In this document: positions 19,032-62,535 of the stretch, piece after piece
Position numbering within the stretch: the first letter of the stretch is position 1
How the letters are laid out: each line of letters begins with the position of its first letter
Assembly: GCF_038006205.1 (NCBI RefSeq)
Contig: NZ_JBBOUU010000001.1
Span: forward strand, 498,001-562,000
Origin: Solibacillus sp. FSL R7-0668
Lineage (GTDB): Bacteria; Bacillota; Bacilli; Bacillales_A; Planococcaceae
Direction: 5' to 3'
DNA length: 64,000 nt
Made by a program: the position numbers and the translations under genes
Notes under the pieces: model-generated
Databases searched by the model: none
What the model was told of the DNA's origin: nothing
What the model saw: only the letters and a program-made list of their open reading frames with translations

Positions 19032-19472
19032 GTGGCGAACGAGAATGGGAAAACAGTCAAAATTAAGCTAGTTTCCTCGATCATTCCAACCGAGGGCGAG
19101 CTTGAACAATATGAAATGTGGCTAGAGGGTAGCTGTATTGAAAAGGGCGAAAGTTACTATTTACGCTATGAGGAAGTTCAGGAAGAATTACACATTCAAA
19201 CAACGATTAAATTAAACGACAACCGCGGTTTTATCAATCGAAGTGGCGGCGTCATGATGCGCTTACCACTCATTCCTGGCATGCGTGAAAACGGTCATTA
19301 TGAAAGTCCATTTGGCTCTTTACCAATCATTACAGATACGCATCAGTTAGCAATTGACGTACAAAAAAATGAACAAGTATCAGGGCGTTTTCATACGCAA
19401 TATGATCTTATTATAGGCGGCAATTCAGTTGGCCGTTACACATTAGATATTCAATTTACGGAGGTACAGTGA
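19032..19472 (+). CDS. ywiB: DUF1934 family protein YwiB
   Basis: A 146-residue beta-barrel-type protein of the DUF1934 (YwiB) family, similar in fold to lipocalin-like small barrels, with no known activity. It starts at GTG 19032 after TAGGGGCTG. Its TGA overlaps the ATG of argS, so the two are translationally coupled, the same arrangement as in B. subtilis. Confidence 0.85.
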
Positions 19473-21139
19473 TGAACGCAGTAGAACAATTACAGCAATC
19501 GATTAAAGCGGCACTTGCAGCAGCAATCGAAAAAGCCGGCCTAGTAGAAGCAGGCACAGAAGTAAACATTCACTTAGAAACACCAAAAGATAAGGCAAAC
19601 GGTGACTACGCAACAAACGTCGCGATGCAATTAACAAAATTAGCGAAAAAGCCACCTCGTGCCATCGCAGAAAGCATTTTAGAAAACTTAGAAACAGCGG
19701 ATACCGAGATTGAGAAAATCGACATCGCGGGTCCAGGTTTCATGAACATTACCGTGCGTAAAGACTTTTTAGCGAGTGTTGTAAAAGCAGCATTCGAGCA
19801 AGGGGCAAACTACGGTCGTTCAAATGCAGGAAATGCTGAAAAGGTACAAGTAGAGTTCGTTTCAGCGAACCCAACTGGTGACTTACATTTAGGACATGCG
19901 CGTGGTGCATCTGTAGGGGATTCATTATGTAATGTAATGGACTTTGCAGGCTACGCAGTATCACGTGAGTACTATATTAACGATGCGGGTAACCAAATTA
20001 ACAATTTAGCGTATTCTTTAGAGGCTCGTTACAAACAAGCACTAGGGATGGACGCTGACATGCCAGAAGATGGCTATCATGGCTCAGACATTATCGAAAT
20101 CGCAGGCAAACTAGCTGAAGAATTCGGTGCAGCCATTTTGGAAAAATCAGAGGAAGAGCGCTTCAAATTCTTCCGTCAGCACGGCTTACAATTAGAATTA
20201 GCCAAATTACAAAACGATTTGAAAAACTTCCGCGTAGAATTTGACGTTTGGTATTCAGAAACTTCATTATACGAAAACGGTAAAATCGATGTGGCGTTAA
20301 ACAAATTACGTGAAAACGGTCATGTCTTTGAAGAAGAAGGCGCGACTTGGTTCCGTTCGACAACATTTGGTGACGACAAAGACCGCGTATTAATCAAAAA
20401 CGATGGCTCATTCACTTATTTAACACCAGATATCGCTTATCACGAGGACAAATTACAACGTGGCTTCAATAAATTAATCAATATTTGGGGAGCAGACCAC
20501 CACGGTTATATCCCACGTATGAAAGCAGCGATTGAAGCACTTGGCTATGACCGCGGTACATTAGAAGTGGACATTATCCAAATGGTACAGCTTTATAAAA
20601 ATGGTGAAAAATTCAAAATGTCAAAACGTACAGGTAACGCGGTGACGATGCGTGAATTAGTAGAAGAAGTAGGCTTAGATGCGGTACGTTATTTCTTCGT
20701 AAAAACAGCGGGCGACTCTCATATGGACTTCGATTTAGATTTAGCCGTTTCACAATCAAACGAAAACCCAGTGTATTACGCACAATATGCACATGCACGT
20801 ATTTCTTCCATCTTACGTTCAGCGGCGGAGCAAGGTTATGCGGCAACACTTGAAAACTTAAATCTGTTAACGGCTGAAAAAGAAGAGGATGTACTGAAAA
20901 AAGTAGGCGCATTCCCACAAATCGTGGCGGACGCAGCGAAACACCGTACACCACACCGTATTGCGAACTACATTCAGGAATTAGCGGCTGCATTCCACAG
21001 CTTCTACAATGCTGAAAAAGTATTAAACCAAGACAACAAGGAGCTAACAGAAGCTCGTCTTGCATTAATTACAGCAGTTAAAACAACTTTAGCGAACGCA
21101 TTAAAATTAATTGGCGTAAGCGCTCCAGAAAAAATGTAA
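19472..21139 (+). CDS. argS: Arginyl-tRNA synthetase
   Basis: Class I synthetase that charges tRNA-Arg. An N-terminal additional domain (about 1-110) precedes the HIGH-type motif LHLGHARGA at 138-146. The KMSKR motif is in [12 protein letters not shown], near residue 370, and the helical anticodon-binding domain is at the C-terminus (HARISSIL onward). The length is 555 residues. GTG at 19469 is also in frame, but GGAGGT at 19460-19465 is only three bases from it and six from ATG 19472, which I choose. A strong terminator follows. Confidence 0.97.
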
Positions 21140-21150
21140 TCACTAATTGT

Positions 21151-21197
21151 AATCCCCCTATTTGTTGCATGATGCAGCGAATAGGGGGATTTTTTTG
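21151..21197 (+). terminator. Intrinsic terminator after argS
   Basis: 12 bp stem AATCCCCCTATT / AATAGGGGGATT, T-run of seven. Confidence 0.9.
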
Positions 21198-21250
21198 CGT
21201 TCTAAGAAATAAAAGTGGTGTCATTGAAATTGTGGATCTTGTTGGGTGTT

Positions 21251-21349
21251 CGCAAATATATGTGAAAAACGCTAATATCTCGGCGATTTCGCAAATAAGT
21301 TCTGAATATCGCAAATAAAATCCAAAAGTCGCAAATATCCCCTACGCAC
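21251..21349. repeat. Five-unit CGCAAATA array, 20-base period
   Basis: CGCAAATA (one copy CGCTAATA) begins at 21251, 21270, 21290, 21310 and 21330, a spacing of 19, 20, 20 and 20. The 12-base intervals between core motifs differ from one another. The array starts 54 bases after the argS terminator. It is homologous unit by unit to the array at 62198. Function unknown. Confidence 0.85.
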
Positions 21350-21390
21350 GTCCCACGTCCCTGAGAGTAAAAGCATATGCTAATAATACG

Positions 21391-21480
21391 AATAATTCCT
21401 ATAAAAAAACTTAGAATTAGCTATTGACTTCTAAATATTCAGAAAGTATGATTAATTCCAATAAGAAAACTTAGTTATTA
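21391..21480 (+). promoter_or_regulatory. Two CymR-like operator boxes flanking the promoter
   Basis: Direct repeats at 21391-21420 and 21451-21480, exactly 60 bases apart, share TAATTCC(A/T)ATAA and AAAACTTAG, about 22 of 30 positions. Read on the minus strand they give CTAAGTTTT and GGAATTA, which resembles the CymR (cysteine metabolism repressor) consensus of Bacillus and Staphylococcus. Box 1 abuts the -35 and box 2 overlaps the -10 and start of transcription, as expected for repression. Confidence 0.6.
21424..21452 (+). promoter_or_regulatory. Sigma-A promoter of the sulfur-type operon
   Basis: TTGACT at 21424 and TATGAT at 21447 with a 17-base spacer, followed by the operon whose first gene starts at 21503. 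Confidence 0.8.
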
Positions 21481-21502: not shown

Positions 21503-22681
21503 ATGAGTAAGCAATTATTTATTAAAACAGATGAGCAGCGTCAATGGCTCGCAAAATTAGCAACGGTAGAACAAAGCTTTAAAGATCGAGCACAGCAAAT
21601 TGATGAGGATTCGGTTTTTCCGTTTGAAAATTTCAAGAAGCTTCGTGAAATCGGCTATACAAAAATAACATTGCCAAAGGAATTTGGAGGGGAAGGGCTT
21701 TCTGTTTACGATGCGATACTTCTACATGAAACACTTTCAAGCTATTGTGGTAGCACCGGCTTAGCGGCTTCCTGGTCGATTCAAAATATTGGTGAAATCT
21801 TTGAAAATCGTTATTGGCAGTCTGATACACTGACATCGTTTGGAGAGCAAGTGAAAAATGGAGCCACTGTGAACCGTGCAGTAAGTGAATTTGCAATGGG
21901 AAGCCCAGTACGTGGTGGAAAACCAGCAACTTCCGCCAAGCATGACGGAGAAGACTATGTGATTAATGGCCGCAAAAATTATACGAGTGGTGCGCCGGAT
22001 TTAGATTATTTTTTAGTTTCGGCTTGGATAGAGGACGACAATCAGCTTGGCTTTTTCTTAATTCCAAAAACAGCACAAGGCGTTACCGTCGAAAATACAT
22101 GGGATGTTGCATCGATGCGCGGTACAGGGAGTGATGATTTAGTCTTACAAAATGTACGTGTCGCATCCTCTTCTTTAGTTGAAATCCCTAGTTATTCTAC
22201 AGGTTTTAAATTGAATGGCTGGCTGCTCTTAATTCCAGCAACCTATTTAGGTATTGCACAGGCTGCGCGGGATTATGCTGTGAAATTTGCGACAGAGCAC
22301 TCGCCAAACAGTATTCAAGGAACAATTGCCGAGTTACCAAATGTGCAAACCCTGATCGGAGAAATGGATTTAGCGTTAACGAATGCGCGCTTTACGCTTT
22401 ACGGTGTAGCAGCGCTTTATGAGGACCCAGCGAAAAAATCAGAAATTATTAATGAAGTCAATATCGCAAAGCATGTGGTGACAAATATTGCAATCGAAGT
22501 TGTAGACAAGGCAATGCGCTTAGTAGGAGCAAAAAGCCTACAGCGCGCCAATCCATTACAGCGCTATTACCGAGATGTACGTGCAGGGTTGCATAATCCA
22601 CCAATGGATGACTTGACGATTAAGCGCTTGGCAGAAACGGCAATTCAAAATCAATTAAAAGAGAAAGAGGTATCTGTATGA
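21503..22681 (+). CDS. Acyl-CoA dehydrogenase-like flavoprotein (DszC/SfnB type)
   Basis: A 392-residue FAD/FMN enzyme of the acyl-CoA dehydrogenase fold: helical N-terminal domain (about 1-125), beta domain (MRGTGSDDLVLQNVRV) and C-terminal four-helix bundle. The catalytic Glu of true acyl-CoA dehydrogenases is not seen at the usual C-terminal spot (the area reads YYRDVRAGLHNPPMDD). This matches the flavin monooxygenase-like branch used in sulfur acquisition (DszC, SfnB). It is first in an operon with a solute-binding protein and two permeases, behind CymR-like boxes. A role in breaking down an imported organosulfur compound is inferred. Confidence 0.75.
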   Translation: MSKQLFIKTDEQRQWLAKLATVEQSFKDRAQQIDEDSVFPFENFKKLREIGYTKITLPKEFGGEGLSVYDAILLHETLSSYCGSTGLAASWSIQNIGEIFENRYWQSDTLTSFGEQVKNGATVNRAVSEFAMGSPVRGGKPATSAKHDGEDYVINGRKNYTSGAPDLDYFLVSAWIEDDNQLGFFLIPKTAQGVTVENTWDVASMRGTGSDDLVLQNVRVASSSLVEIPSYSTGFKLNGWLLLIPATYLGIAQAARDYAVKFATEHSPNSIQGTIAELPNVQTLIGEMDLALTNARFTLYGVAALYEDPAKKSEIINEVNIAKHVVTNIAIEVVDKAMRLVGAKSLQRANPLQRYYRDVRAGLHNPPMDDLTIKRLAETAIQNQLKEKEVSV

Positions 22682-25196: not shown

Positions 25197-26474
25197 ATGA
25201 ATTTTAATACGAATGAAAAAATTAATCAAGTTTCTGAAAATACGTTAGTCATTGGCATCGATATTGCCAAGCATAAGCACTTCGCTTGTGCTGTGGATGA
25301 TCGCGGTCGCGTGCTCCAAAAATCATTTCCTATCGTGCAATCACGTATCGGATTTGAAGCGTTTTATGAGCGTCTGCTTACGTTAAAAACGGCACATGAA
25401 AAACAAGAAATCCTCGTTGGTTTCGAGCCAACTGGTCACTACTGGATGAACTTAGCGGCGTTTTTAACACACTATGGGATTCCGTTTGTGATGGTCAATC
25501 CGATGCACGTCAATCGCTCGAAAGAACTCGACGACAACCTGCAGACGAAAAATGACCAAAAAGATGCGCTTGTCATCGCCCGTCTAATGCGAGATGGACG
25601 CTTTAGCTATCCTCGTCTTTTAGAAGGCGTGGAAGCGGAATTACGAAATGGTGCGACGTTGCGTTCAAAAATTCAAGAGGATTTAAACGCCCTTCAAAAC
25701 CGCATCATTCGTTGGTTAGACCGTTTCTTCCCAGAGTTTACACAAGTCTTTAAAAATTTTGGAAAAATGGCGTATGCGGTGCTGGAAAAAACGCCGCTGC
25801 CAATGGATATTCAAGGGAAAACACCGGAAGAACTGCTCTTCCTTTATCGCCAAGTAGACGGGATGAAAAGTCCTCAACTACCGAAAGCGAAACAATTAGT
25901 CGAACTGGCACCTCATTCAATTGGACTGACGGAAGGACTGGTGATGGCCCGTTATGAAATCGCCACACTGCTTTCTCAAGTGAAACTAATGCAGGCACAG
26001 CTCGATGAATTGACTGTACAATTAACGGAATTAGCGAAACAAATGACGGATTATGACTACCTAGCATCTGTACCCGGAATCGGCGATGTCACGATTGTCG
26101 AATTACTATCAGAAGTCGGTTCGCTCACGCAATATACGCATCCACGCCAATTAATCAAACTCGCGGGACTCACATTGCGTGAAAACTCTTCAGGTAAACA
26201 AACCGGACAAAAACGGATTTCTAAACGTGGAAGACGCAAACTTCGCGCCCTCCTATTCCGTGTCATGATGCCATTGATTCAACATAATCTAGCGTTTAAA
26301 GCGTTACACGAACATTACACCACACGCACCAACAATCCACTGCGTAAAAAGCAATCGATTGTCGTCCTGTGTGGGAAGTTACTGAAGATTTTACATGCCT
26401 TGTGTAACAAGAAAATTTATTTTAATCCAGACCAAATGATGAACGATTTCACCCAGCTTCAAACGGCTGCGTAA
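25197..26474 (+). CDS. IS110-family transposase (bridge-RNA-guided recombinase type)
   Basis: A 425-residue enzyme with an N-terminal RuvC-like DEDD domain: Asp in IGIDIAKHKH, Glu in VGFEPTGHYW, and two Asp in TKNDQKDALVIARL. A coiled-coil middle region (about 270-310) leads to the C-terminal Transposase_20 domain, with SVPGIGDVTIVELLSEVG and the serine-bearing ENSSGKQTGQKRISKRGRRK. All catalytic positions are present and the frame is intact, so it may be active. Enzymes of this family are guided by an RNA from the element's own non-coding end. The start ATG follows GAGAGGAC. Confidence 0.92.
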   Translation: MNFNTNEKINQVSENTLVIGIDIAKHKHFACAVDDRGRVLQKSFPIVQSRIGFEAFYERLLTLKTAHEKQEILVGFEPTGHYWMNLAAFLTHYGIPFVMVNPMHVNRSKELDDNLQTKNDQKDALVIARLMRDGRFSYPRLLEGVEAELRNGATLRSKIQEDLNALQNRIIRWLDRFFPEFTQVFKNFGKMAYAVLEKTPLPMDIQGKTPEELLFLYRQVDGMKSPQLPKAKQLVELAPHSIGLTEGLVMARYEIATLLSQVKLMQAQLDELTVQLTELAKQMTDYDYLASVPGIGDVTIVELLSEVGSLTQYTHPRQLIKLAGLTLRENSSGKQTGQKRISKRGRRKLRALLFRVMMPLIQHNLAFKALHEHYTTRTNNPLRKKQSIVVLCGKLLKILHALCNKKIYFNPDQMMNDFTQLQTAA

Positions 26475-27635: not shown

Positions 27636-27728
27636 TGAATTAAGAGGAATTATCTGAAAATAAGTATAAGTTTGCGTACAAAACGAAATTTATCCGCTAT
27701 AATAAAAGATAAATTTCATATCGATTGT

Positions 27729-27905
27729 AAAGGTTCTTATTCAACAATAAGAAGTAATAGGGAAATCGGTTAAATGCCGATGCGGTCCCGCCACTGTAAA
27801 TGCGAGTTTAAAGCATGATGCCACTGTATCATACGGGAAGGCGCTATTAAACGTTTGAACGCATAAGCCAGGAGACCTGCCTTTATAATGCCCAAAGATA
27901 CGCCT
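27729..27905 (+). promoter_or_regulatory. Cobalamin (AdoCbl) riboswitch
   Basis: Conserved elements appear in order: AGGTTCTTATT near 27731, AATAGGGAA, GATGCGGTCCCGCCACTGTAA at 27779-27799 and the B12 box GCCAGGAGACCTGCC at 27867-27881. A TATAAT -10 box lies at 27698. It precedes the B12 uptake operon and would lower its expression when cobalamin is plentiful. Confidence 0.95.
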
Positions 27906-54712: not shown

Positions 54713-54762
54713 TACGAAAATACTCTGTTCCAGATGGTTCAGGGCGAGAGGAGAAAACGAAT

Positions 54763-62169: not shown

Positions 62170-62197
62170 TATGAAGTAACGGAGATTTTTATGGATT

Positions 62198-62276
62198 TGC
62201 AAATATATAGAAAAAACGCAAATATCCCCATGATTTCGCAATTAAAATCCTAAAGTCGCAAATATCCATTACATAT
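62198..62276. repeat. Four-unit CGCAAATA array, 20-base period
   Basis: Units begin at 62198 (TGCAAATA), 62217, 62237 (CGCAATTA) and 62257, spaced 19, 20 and 20, starting 29 bases after the terminator. Unit 1 matches unit 1 of the 21251 array in 16 of 19, unit 3 here matches unit 4 there in 18 of 20, so the two are homologous, with one unit missing here. Confidence 0.85.
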
Positions 62277-62535
62277 TCACAAAGAACAACGCGTTTCGTG
62301 TAATTAATCTGATAATACAAAAAATAGTCTATAATAACATTTTTACGTATATTGATTGGGGAAACCTACTCAAATCTACCGAAAAAACTAATGATTATGC
62401 CTTTGTAGACGTAAATATTCGTGTTTTATGCCGGAAAATCAAAATCATTATGGAAAATACGTGTCAATCTGGTGTAATAAATGGTACACTGTTGATGAAA
62501 ATAAAAGTAAAACTAGTTTAGGGAGGAAACCCTCT

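Follow-up and report, generated by a model that had tools for sequence, protein, structure and literature searches.

What is the run of evenly spaced octamers that follows argS in Solibacillus sp. FSL R7-0668? The repeats lie in a window of 64,000 nucleotides, which is the whole stretch of DNA that was analysed (positions 498,001 to 562,000 of contig NZ_JBBOUU010000001.1). argS (19469..21139, plus strand; PF00750, PF05746 and PF03485) is followed by its terminator hairpin at 21151..21191 (plus strand; an inverted repeat, then a T run), a neighbour outside the repeat element, and array 1 is placed 3' of this hairpin. The first-pass annotation had counted five copies of an 8-base core. Their coordinates and their start-to-start steps of 19/20/20/20 stand, but only four of the five are exact: within 21251-21337 on the plus strand, the exact word CGCAAATA occupies 21251..21258, 21290..21297, 21310..21317 and 21330..21337, and word comparison shows that the core at 21270..21277 is CGCTAATA, with one mismatch. 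The whole element with its conserved flanks, as delimited by a sequence model and an alignment of 17 arrays, covers 21226..21346 (plus strand). It comprises a 5' flank at 21226..21250, for which the array alignment gives the family consensus AATGGGGATTTTTGGGTATT, the five cores, and a 3' end at 21338..21346 that array comparison and the model identify as TATCCCC-like in many copies. The gene downstream is acyl-CoA dehydrogenase-like (21503..22681, plus strand; PF02770 and PF08028).

Several other features surround the array. Two 40-bp direct repeats (21375-21414 and 21435-21474; 78% identical, 60 bp apart) lie upstream of the acyl-CoA dehydrogenase-like gene; they resemble the box of a CymR-like sulfur-metabolism repressor, and similar sequence occurs at the same place in several Solibacillus relatives. 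An open reading frame near array 1 (25197-26474) resembles an IS110-family transposase, the family being assigned by eye, and shows no sign of a link to the array. The window also holds a cobalamin riboswitch (27714-27898) and an L31-Firmicutes ribosomal-protein leader (54723-54753) that is barely over its gathering score. At gathering thresholds, no Rfam covariance model matched either of the two arrays in the window.

Array 1 is one of about 40 scattered copies of a dispersed repeat family. The pattern CGCAAATA-N11..13-CGCAAATA has 90 matches in the 4.23-Mb genome and its reversed control has none. Distances between exact cores were tallied up to 130 bp in the window and in 23 own-genome stretches picked for holding arrays. 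On the same strand they peak at 20 bp (87 pairs), 40 (60), 60 (40), 80 (21) and 100 (9), most distances in these array-bearing stretches lying within 2 bp of a multiple of 20, and a single opposite-strand pair was counted. The earlier proposals of a dispersed element and of a fixed two-turn register are thus borne out, the former also by arrays in other Bacillales, and the 20-bp spacing recurs in the other copies of the genome, a check that the first-pass annotation had named beforehand as its refuting test. Chance or low-complexity similarity has in its favour that the word is short, the DNA AT-rich and the single-word frequency in the window near chance: CGCAAATA is not clearly enriched there, with 9 matches against 5.7 expected, 6 of the 9 inside the two arrays. 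The reversed-pattern control and the core-distance peaks near multiples of 20 refute this explanation, and we give it practically no weight.

The second array of the family in the window (62173..62288, plus strand; model match with E 5.6e-18) lies between a chemotaxis-receptor-like gene and a gene for a LacAB/RpiB-type isomerase, and core comparison places its cores at 62198 (TGCAAATA), 62217, 62237 (CGCAATTA) and 62257 on the plus strand. Alignment of 17 arrays from this genome yields one element, consisting of the 5' flank AATGGGGATTTTTGGGTATT, up to five 20-base units and a last core, with TATCCCC at the end of many copies; shorter arrays are without one or more units. Since the spacers are position-specific and common to different arrays, these arrays are multiple copies of a single element, about 100-145 bp long, that has flanks of its own. 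A sequence-only model of the 17 arrays gave at least 57 own-genome matches at E <=0.1 (150 of 2,281 candidates scored). After merging of one split array and removal of one opposite-strand duplicate and seven matches of E >=0.005, 48 were retained, 38 of them below E 1e-5. The match for array 1 (contig positions 519226-519346) has an E value of 1.2e-24, both window arrays being among the 17 used to build the model. With gene positions from a home-made gene caller, 28 of the 29 own-genome arrays of three or more cores fall outside predicted genes and one overlaps a gene end by a few bases. Arrays cluster along this chromosome (median nearest neighbour 12.6 kb vs 37 kb, p 0.001); no clustering was found along the chromosome of genome G067 (p 0.51). 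One own-genome array (L187:5760-5896) has recA on one side and a gene encoding an RNase Y-like protein on the other.

An asymmetric motif some 15 bases long, approximately RAANTCGCAAATAAA, forms the repeating unit and recurs every 20-21 bp. In the own genome the eight core letters carry 1.7-2.0 bits, in arrays found with up to two core mismatches allowed. The letters directly before the core (A, A, T), which played no part in array finding, carry 1.1-1.7 bits against 0.1-0.4 in mid-spacer. With the motif itself conserved, the earlier suggestion that selection acts on spacing rather than on sequence is not supported. Over 16 taxon groups the consensus reads CGCAAATA, then A or W, A or M, about 5-6 free bases and, before the next core, mostly AA followed by a pyrimidine or T. 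The mean step is 19.9-20.9 bp across the 16 groups and the commonest step is 20 or 21 in every group; since the finder admits steps of 18-22 bp and cores with up to two mismatches, it predetermines the range of means and some of the core conservation. No such restriction affects the two-core and three-core searches and their control, the unrestricted distances or the letters before the core. The groups represent selected loci, with arrays of fewer than four cores dropped outside the own genome and G067, and two of them (BHI2 and G066) are probably one species.

Motif and period are the same across many genera, with different spacers, unit types and flanks, and alternating 20/21 steps with unlike units are present. 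The core itself varies by lineage: it is CGCAAGTA in Ureibacillus, where 18- or 19-bp steps stand next to 21s (mean 20.4), and CGCAGATA at some Metasolibacillus loci. Relaxed cores such as TGCAAACA, CGCAAACA and CGCAATTA form 20-21 bp arrays at loci of Planococcus and of G144. Four Planococcus arrays of relaxed cores (TGCAAACA, CGCAAACA and CGCAAAGA) are found at L402:5823-5935, L402:7251-7363, L403:7502-7612 and L394:991-1082, likewise at 20-21 bp. Judged from these variants, the exact word probably understates the extent of the family. Long arrays in many cases consist of tandem copies that are almost identical, and some contain higher-order repeats.

The scan of Planococcaceae that had been proposed for spaced cores found two exact cores in register in 29 of 261 genomes and three in 17 of 261. 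In a class-level sample 5 of 398 genomes matched, four of them of the own family; the fifth, G485, carries a perfect 19-base tandem and was left out as a member. Lone two-core pairs in unrelated phyla we take as chance. Among 16 Solibacillus genomes (E <=1e-4, 150 candidates per genome scored), the model had at least 43 matches in the own genome, at least 21 in G150, at least 9 in G151 and at least 1 in G153, and none in the other 12. This patchy spread (17 of 261 genomes with three cores, 12 of 16 Solibacillus without a match) indicates that the family is dispensable. Arrays of four or more cores occur, among the matches listed, in Metasolibacillus, Gottfriedia, Bacillus infantis, Metabacillus mangrovi, Neobacillus, Robertmurraya and others, the longest reported among them being one of 56 cores in Ureibacillus acetophenoni. 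Outside the own genome 40 of 42 arrays of four or more cores are clear of predicted genes, and the remaining two are long Ureibacillus arrays beneath opposite-strand open frames. In these Ureibacillus arrays (L142:82-1209 and L209:5123-5742) the steps are mostly 21 and 18 bp, multiples of three, with the open frame on the other strand; the gene caller was trained on the same locus, and the open frame is no proof of coding. A scan of viral contigs returned three matches, with no array of this kind around any of them: two come from nearly identical GC-rich three-core contigs and one lies in apparent coding repeats. Two array queries against a plasmid collection and one against phages gave no BLAST match with the low-complexity filter on, which may hide such DNA.

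Conserved structure in the arrays was also sought. RNAalifold predicted no conserved pairs on the 17-array alignment, and fold energies were ordinary on both strands for RNA (z -1.51 to +0.14, 8 folds) and likewise for DNA (z -0.46 to +2.23, 6 folds), on which grounds an RNA or single-strand DNA structure was rejected. Predicted curvature, calculated from a table of wedge angles, exceeded that of spacer-shuffled arrays in G067 (9.6 vs 7.3 degrees per turn, p 0.0007), in other taxa (8.7 vs 7.1, p 0.0015) and in the own genome (7.7 vs 6.8, p 0.075). The excess is only modest, and strong intrinsic curvature was rejected.

The arrays lie mostly on the leading strand. The leading strand of Firmicutes carries a G excess, and the GC skew of the own genome changes sign near 1.9 Mb. 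By this measure 22 of the 27 strongest model copies are leading (p 0.0015), against 4 of 11 weak copies (E 1e-10 to 1e-5; Fisher p 0.017), 3 of the 10 weakest, and 29 of all 48 matches (p 0.19); by local skew, 22 of 29 arrays of three or more cores are leading. G067 is a single contig of 3.96 Mb; each of the 23 loci detected there at E <=1e-6 is on the G-rich strand (at least 23 loci, with 150 of 2,152 candidates scored), and the core finder re-found 21 of them with concordant local skew in each stretch. Leading orientation was seen in 19 of 20 arrays from G065, G102, G106, G110, G117 and G144, the sole discordant array being L394:991-1082 of Planococcus. This count draws on 20 further stretches from seven genomes and excludes two stretches of G091 and one of G144 without a three-core array; of the exact pairs in these three, two agree with local skew and one (skew 0.010) disagrees. 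Of the 42 non-own arrays with at least four cores, 31 are leading; their loci are mostly 8 kb long and from drafts, and skew is a noisy measure at this length. This set omits arrays of fewer than four cores, neighbouring arrays within 700 bp and two duplicate loci. One of its 11 discordant arrays, L073, has the same units as a G066 array that is orthologous to a concordant array of G067.

Gene direction is a possible confounder of this polarity and bears on a transcript-level explanation, according to which repeated CGCAAAUA acts in the 3' RNA, for example as a protein sponge or 3' stabiliser. Co-orientation with the upstream gene speaks for it outside the own genome: 28 of 37 in the 42-array set, 19 of 21 in G067 and most of the set with 19 of 20 leading arrays. 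Against it, only 14 of 28 own-genome arrays run with their upstream gene and 14 run against it (a further array has no such gene within its stretch), array 1 is separated from argS by the terminator hairpin, and conserved RNA structure was not found; we consider a role in the transcript unlikely. The downstream gene is co-oriented with 16 and opposed to 13 own-genome arrays, and opposed in 21 of 36 cases in the 42-array set. A pooled table of 112 arrays from the four sets (own genome, G067, 19-of-20 set and 42-array set) crossed array orientation with gene direction and skew. With a lagging upstream gene, 14 of 19 arrays are leading (p 0.064; 8 of 10 in the own genome, 2 of 2 in G067, 2 of 3 in the 19-of-20 set and 2 of 4 in the 42-array set), and where it is leading, 75 of 87. 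With a lagging downstream gene 36 of 40 arrays are leading (p 2e-7), and with a leading one 51 of 66. The orientation p values assume independent arrays, an assumption that related species and common loci break. Gene direction thus explains part of the replication polarity but not all of it; when only the upstream gene is considered, the evidence for an effect of replication is no more than suggestive.

Conserved in many genera, repeated at every second helical turn, without structure and oriented mostly with replication, the motif has the look expected of polar protein-binding sites in an array. We tentatively favour the reading that array 1 is a copy of a chromosomal, satellite-like family of head-to-tail putative protein-binding sites, while rating it somewhat short of an even chance. 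That a protein is bound on one face of the DNA, as the first-pass annotation had surmised, is plausible. A sequence-specific DNA-binding protein would bind the motif at every second turn and on the same face each time, and neighbouring bound proteins may touch, giving a one-directional assembly. The asymmetry of the site and its orientation could then be relevant to a process that follows fork direction, such as segregation, fork/transcription traffic or the guidance of a DNA translocase, and arrays would be retained in the leading orientation and decay otherwise. Weak copies being less often leading than strong ones, the locus at which four species keep an array in one orientation (3,535,204) and the slight curvature that spacer order adds also speak for this reading. 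Against it, no binding protein was found, the family is patchy, only 29 of all 48 own-genome matches are leading, many long arrays could be products of slippage, arrays outside the own genome often follow a co-oriented gene, and loci common to related species make the counts dependent.

The main competitor, which we hold to be a serious though less probable account, is a neutral or selfish satellite: replication slippage or unequal exchange would duplicate a short seed word in tandem, and no protein would read the product. Its polarity would arise if arrays tended to expand with one strand on the lagging template and to be deleted with the other. The near-identical tandem copies of long arrays are what slippage alone would yield, and the higher-order repeats, the absence from most relatives and from orthologous sites, and the commoner discordance among weak copies agree with it. 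Patchy spread, tandem turnover and decay of discordant copies also fit a neutral satellite with replication-dependent expansion. Against it stand the constancy of the motif and of the 20-21 bp period across genera while spacers differ, and the 20/21 alternation with unlike units. Nor is length a precondition for polarity, since short arrays show it as well, namely 4 of 4 arrays of 4-5 cores in G102 and 8 of 8 arrays of 4-7 cores in G067. Because the upstream gene shares in the orientation effect, we lowered our estimate for polar protein binding slightly and raised that for the neutral satellite by a still smaller step.

Histories of four of the many loci illustrate the turnover of units. At G067 locus 3,157,588 there are 35 cores in G067 and 10 in G066, between the same boundaries and with flanks 97-98% identical, a copy-number change in line with neutral turnover, as are the degenerate end units. 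G068 has 30 cores there, mostly CGCAGATA, G069 has a degenerate run of 6, and in G065 the flanking alignments are about 67 bp apart, against 800 bp in G067. Locus 3,535,204 carries arrays of 23, 26, 15 and 10 cores (up to two mismatches each) in four species, in the same orientation and with unlike units at 80-97% flank identity; G065 had no flanking match. Locus 550,253 has 23 cores in G066 and 22 in G067; the stretches taken from the three remaining species yielded no array. Behind argS both flanks match in 15 of 15 other Solibacillus genomes, none of which was reported to match the array part of the query; in G164 the flanking alignments are about 55 bp apart, against about 195 bp in the own genome, and no clean insertion boundary was seen among the relatives listed. 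These alignments show that some loci outlast speciation while their units turn over. In a separate case, the Solibacillus relative G162 repeats the end of argS and the following stretch several times in a row (L214:1100-1600).

The same loci bear on a single-strand mobile element, an IS200/IS605-like passenger that would enter the lagging-strand template and thereby acquire polarity. The link between orientation and replication, the dispersed own-genome copies with common ends and the missing array match at argS in relatives would suit such an element. It would be expected to carry conserved hairpins, which were not found, and a clean boundary is missing at argS among the relatives listed; furthermore, flanks vary between genera while the array stays, and arrays remain at their loci instead of moving. 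We consider this origin improbable, more so than a role in the transcript.

How do the arrays compare with known systems? In plasmid iterons and ParR-type centromere arrays, asymmetric sites of about 20 bp follow one another head to tail next to rep or par genes, and a cognate protein binds once per unit and is loaded on one face. The present arrays are likewise head-to-tail asymmetric sites at about 20 bp but occur in tens of chromosomal copies, and a Pfam check of 10 flanking genes gave nine ordinary matches and one gene without a match, with no replication or partition gene and no cas-like gene among them. KOPS and SpoIIIE recognition sequences (SRS) are isolated octamers, over-represented along the whole chromosome and polar with replication. 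The arrays share an orientation that follows replication, more weakly in the own genome; in the window the word is above chance only inside arrays. CRISPR arrays have regularly spaced repeats, each longer than 20 bp, and spacers that are unique; here, too, short repeats are separated by spacers at a regular period, but the motif has 8-15 bp and the spacers are common to arrays. Dispersed intergenic repeats of bacteria include bcr of Bacillus and REP-type elements, the latter palindromic and folding. The arrays are dispersed and intergenic in the same way, but differ from REP-type elements and IS200/IS605 passengers in having no terminal or internal hairpins (0 conserved pairs; z -1.51 to +2.23 over 14 folds).

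No description of this repeat family was found in the open-licence literature. Among the titles listed of open-licence papers containing the letters TCGCAAATA, none concerns such a repeat; one Deinococcus genome paper has two occurrences. The nearest described kind are the STAR elements of staphylococci, which are described as interspersed intergenic direct repeats with a short conserved motif, variable spacers and a start signature, varying in copy number at fixed loci, patchy between species and of unknown function and mode of spread (PMC3532100). Their motif is GC-rich, T(G/A/T)TGTTG(G/T)GGCCC(C/A), with spacers of at least 40 bp, and the word 'orientation' does not occur in the main text (PMC3532100). 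The arrays resemble them, as there described, in being interspersed intergenic direct repeats with locus-wise change of copy number. They differ in a CGCAAATA-centred motif and a start-to-start step of 20-21 bp; since neither the STAR motif nor the STAR spacer length is found, we file the family as a variant and not as a STAR element.

A more specific form of the protein-binding reading is that the arrays are chromosome polarity marks, serving as loading or stop sites for a protein filament from which a replication-linked machine, such as a translocase, an SMC complex or the fork, would read its direction of travel. We regard this as rather unlikely, if less so than a role in the transcript. 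By analogy, and with the same reserve, the arrays might then be called a bacterial 'centromere-like satellite', resembling in form those eukaryotic satellites that have a conserved protein box. A family in two-turn register is common to several Bacillales genera, and every array found on one whole chromosome is oriented with replication. Either the family is the mark of a DNA-binding system with polarity, or it offers a clear example of bacterial repeat DNA that has been shaped by the direction of replication.
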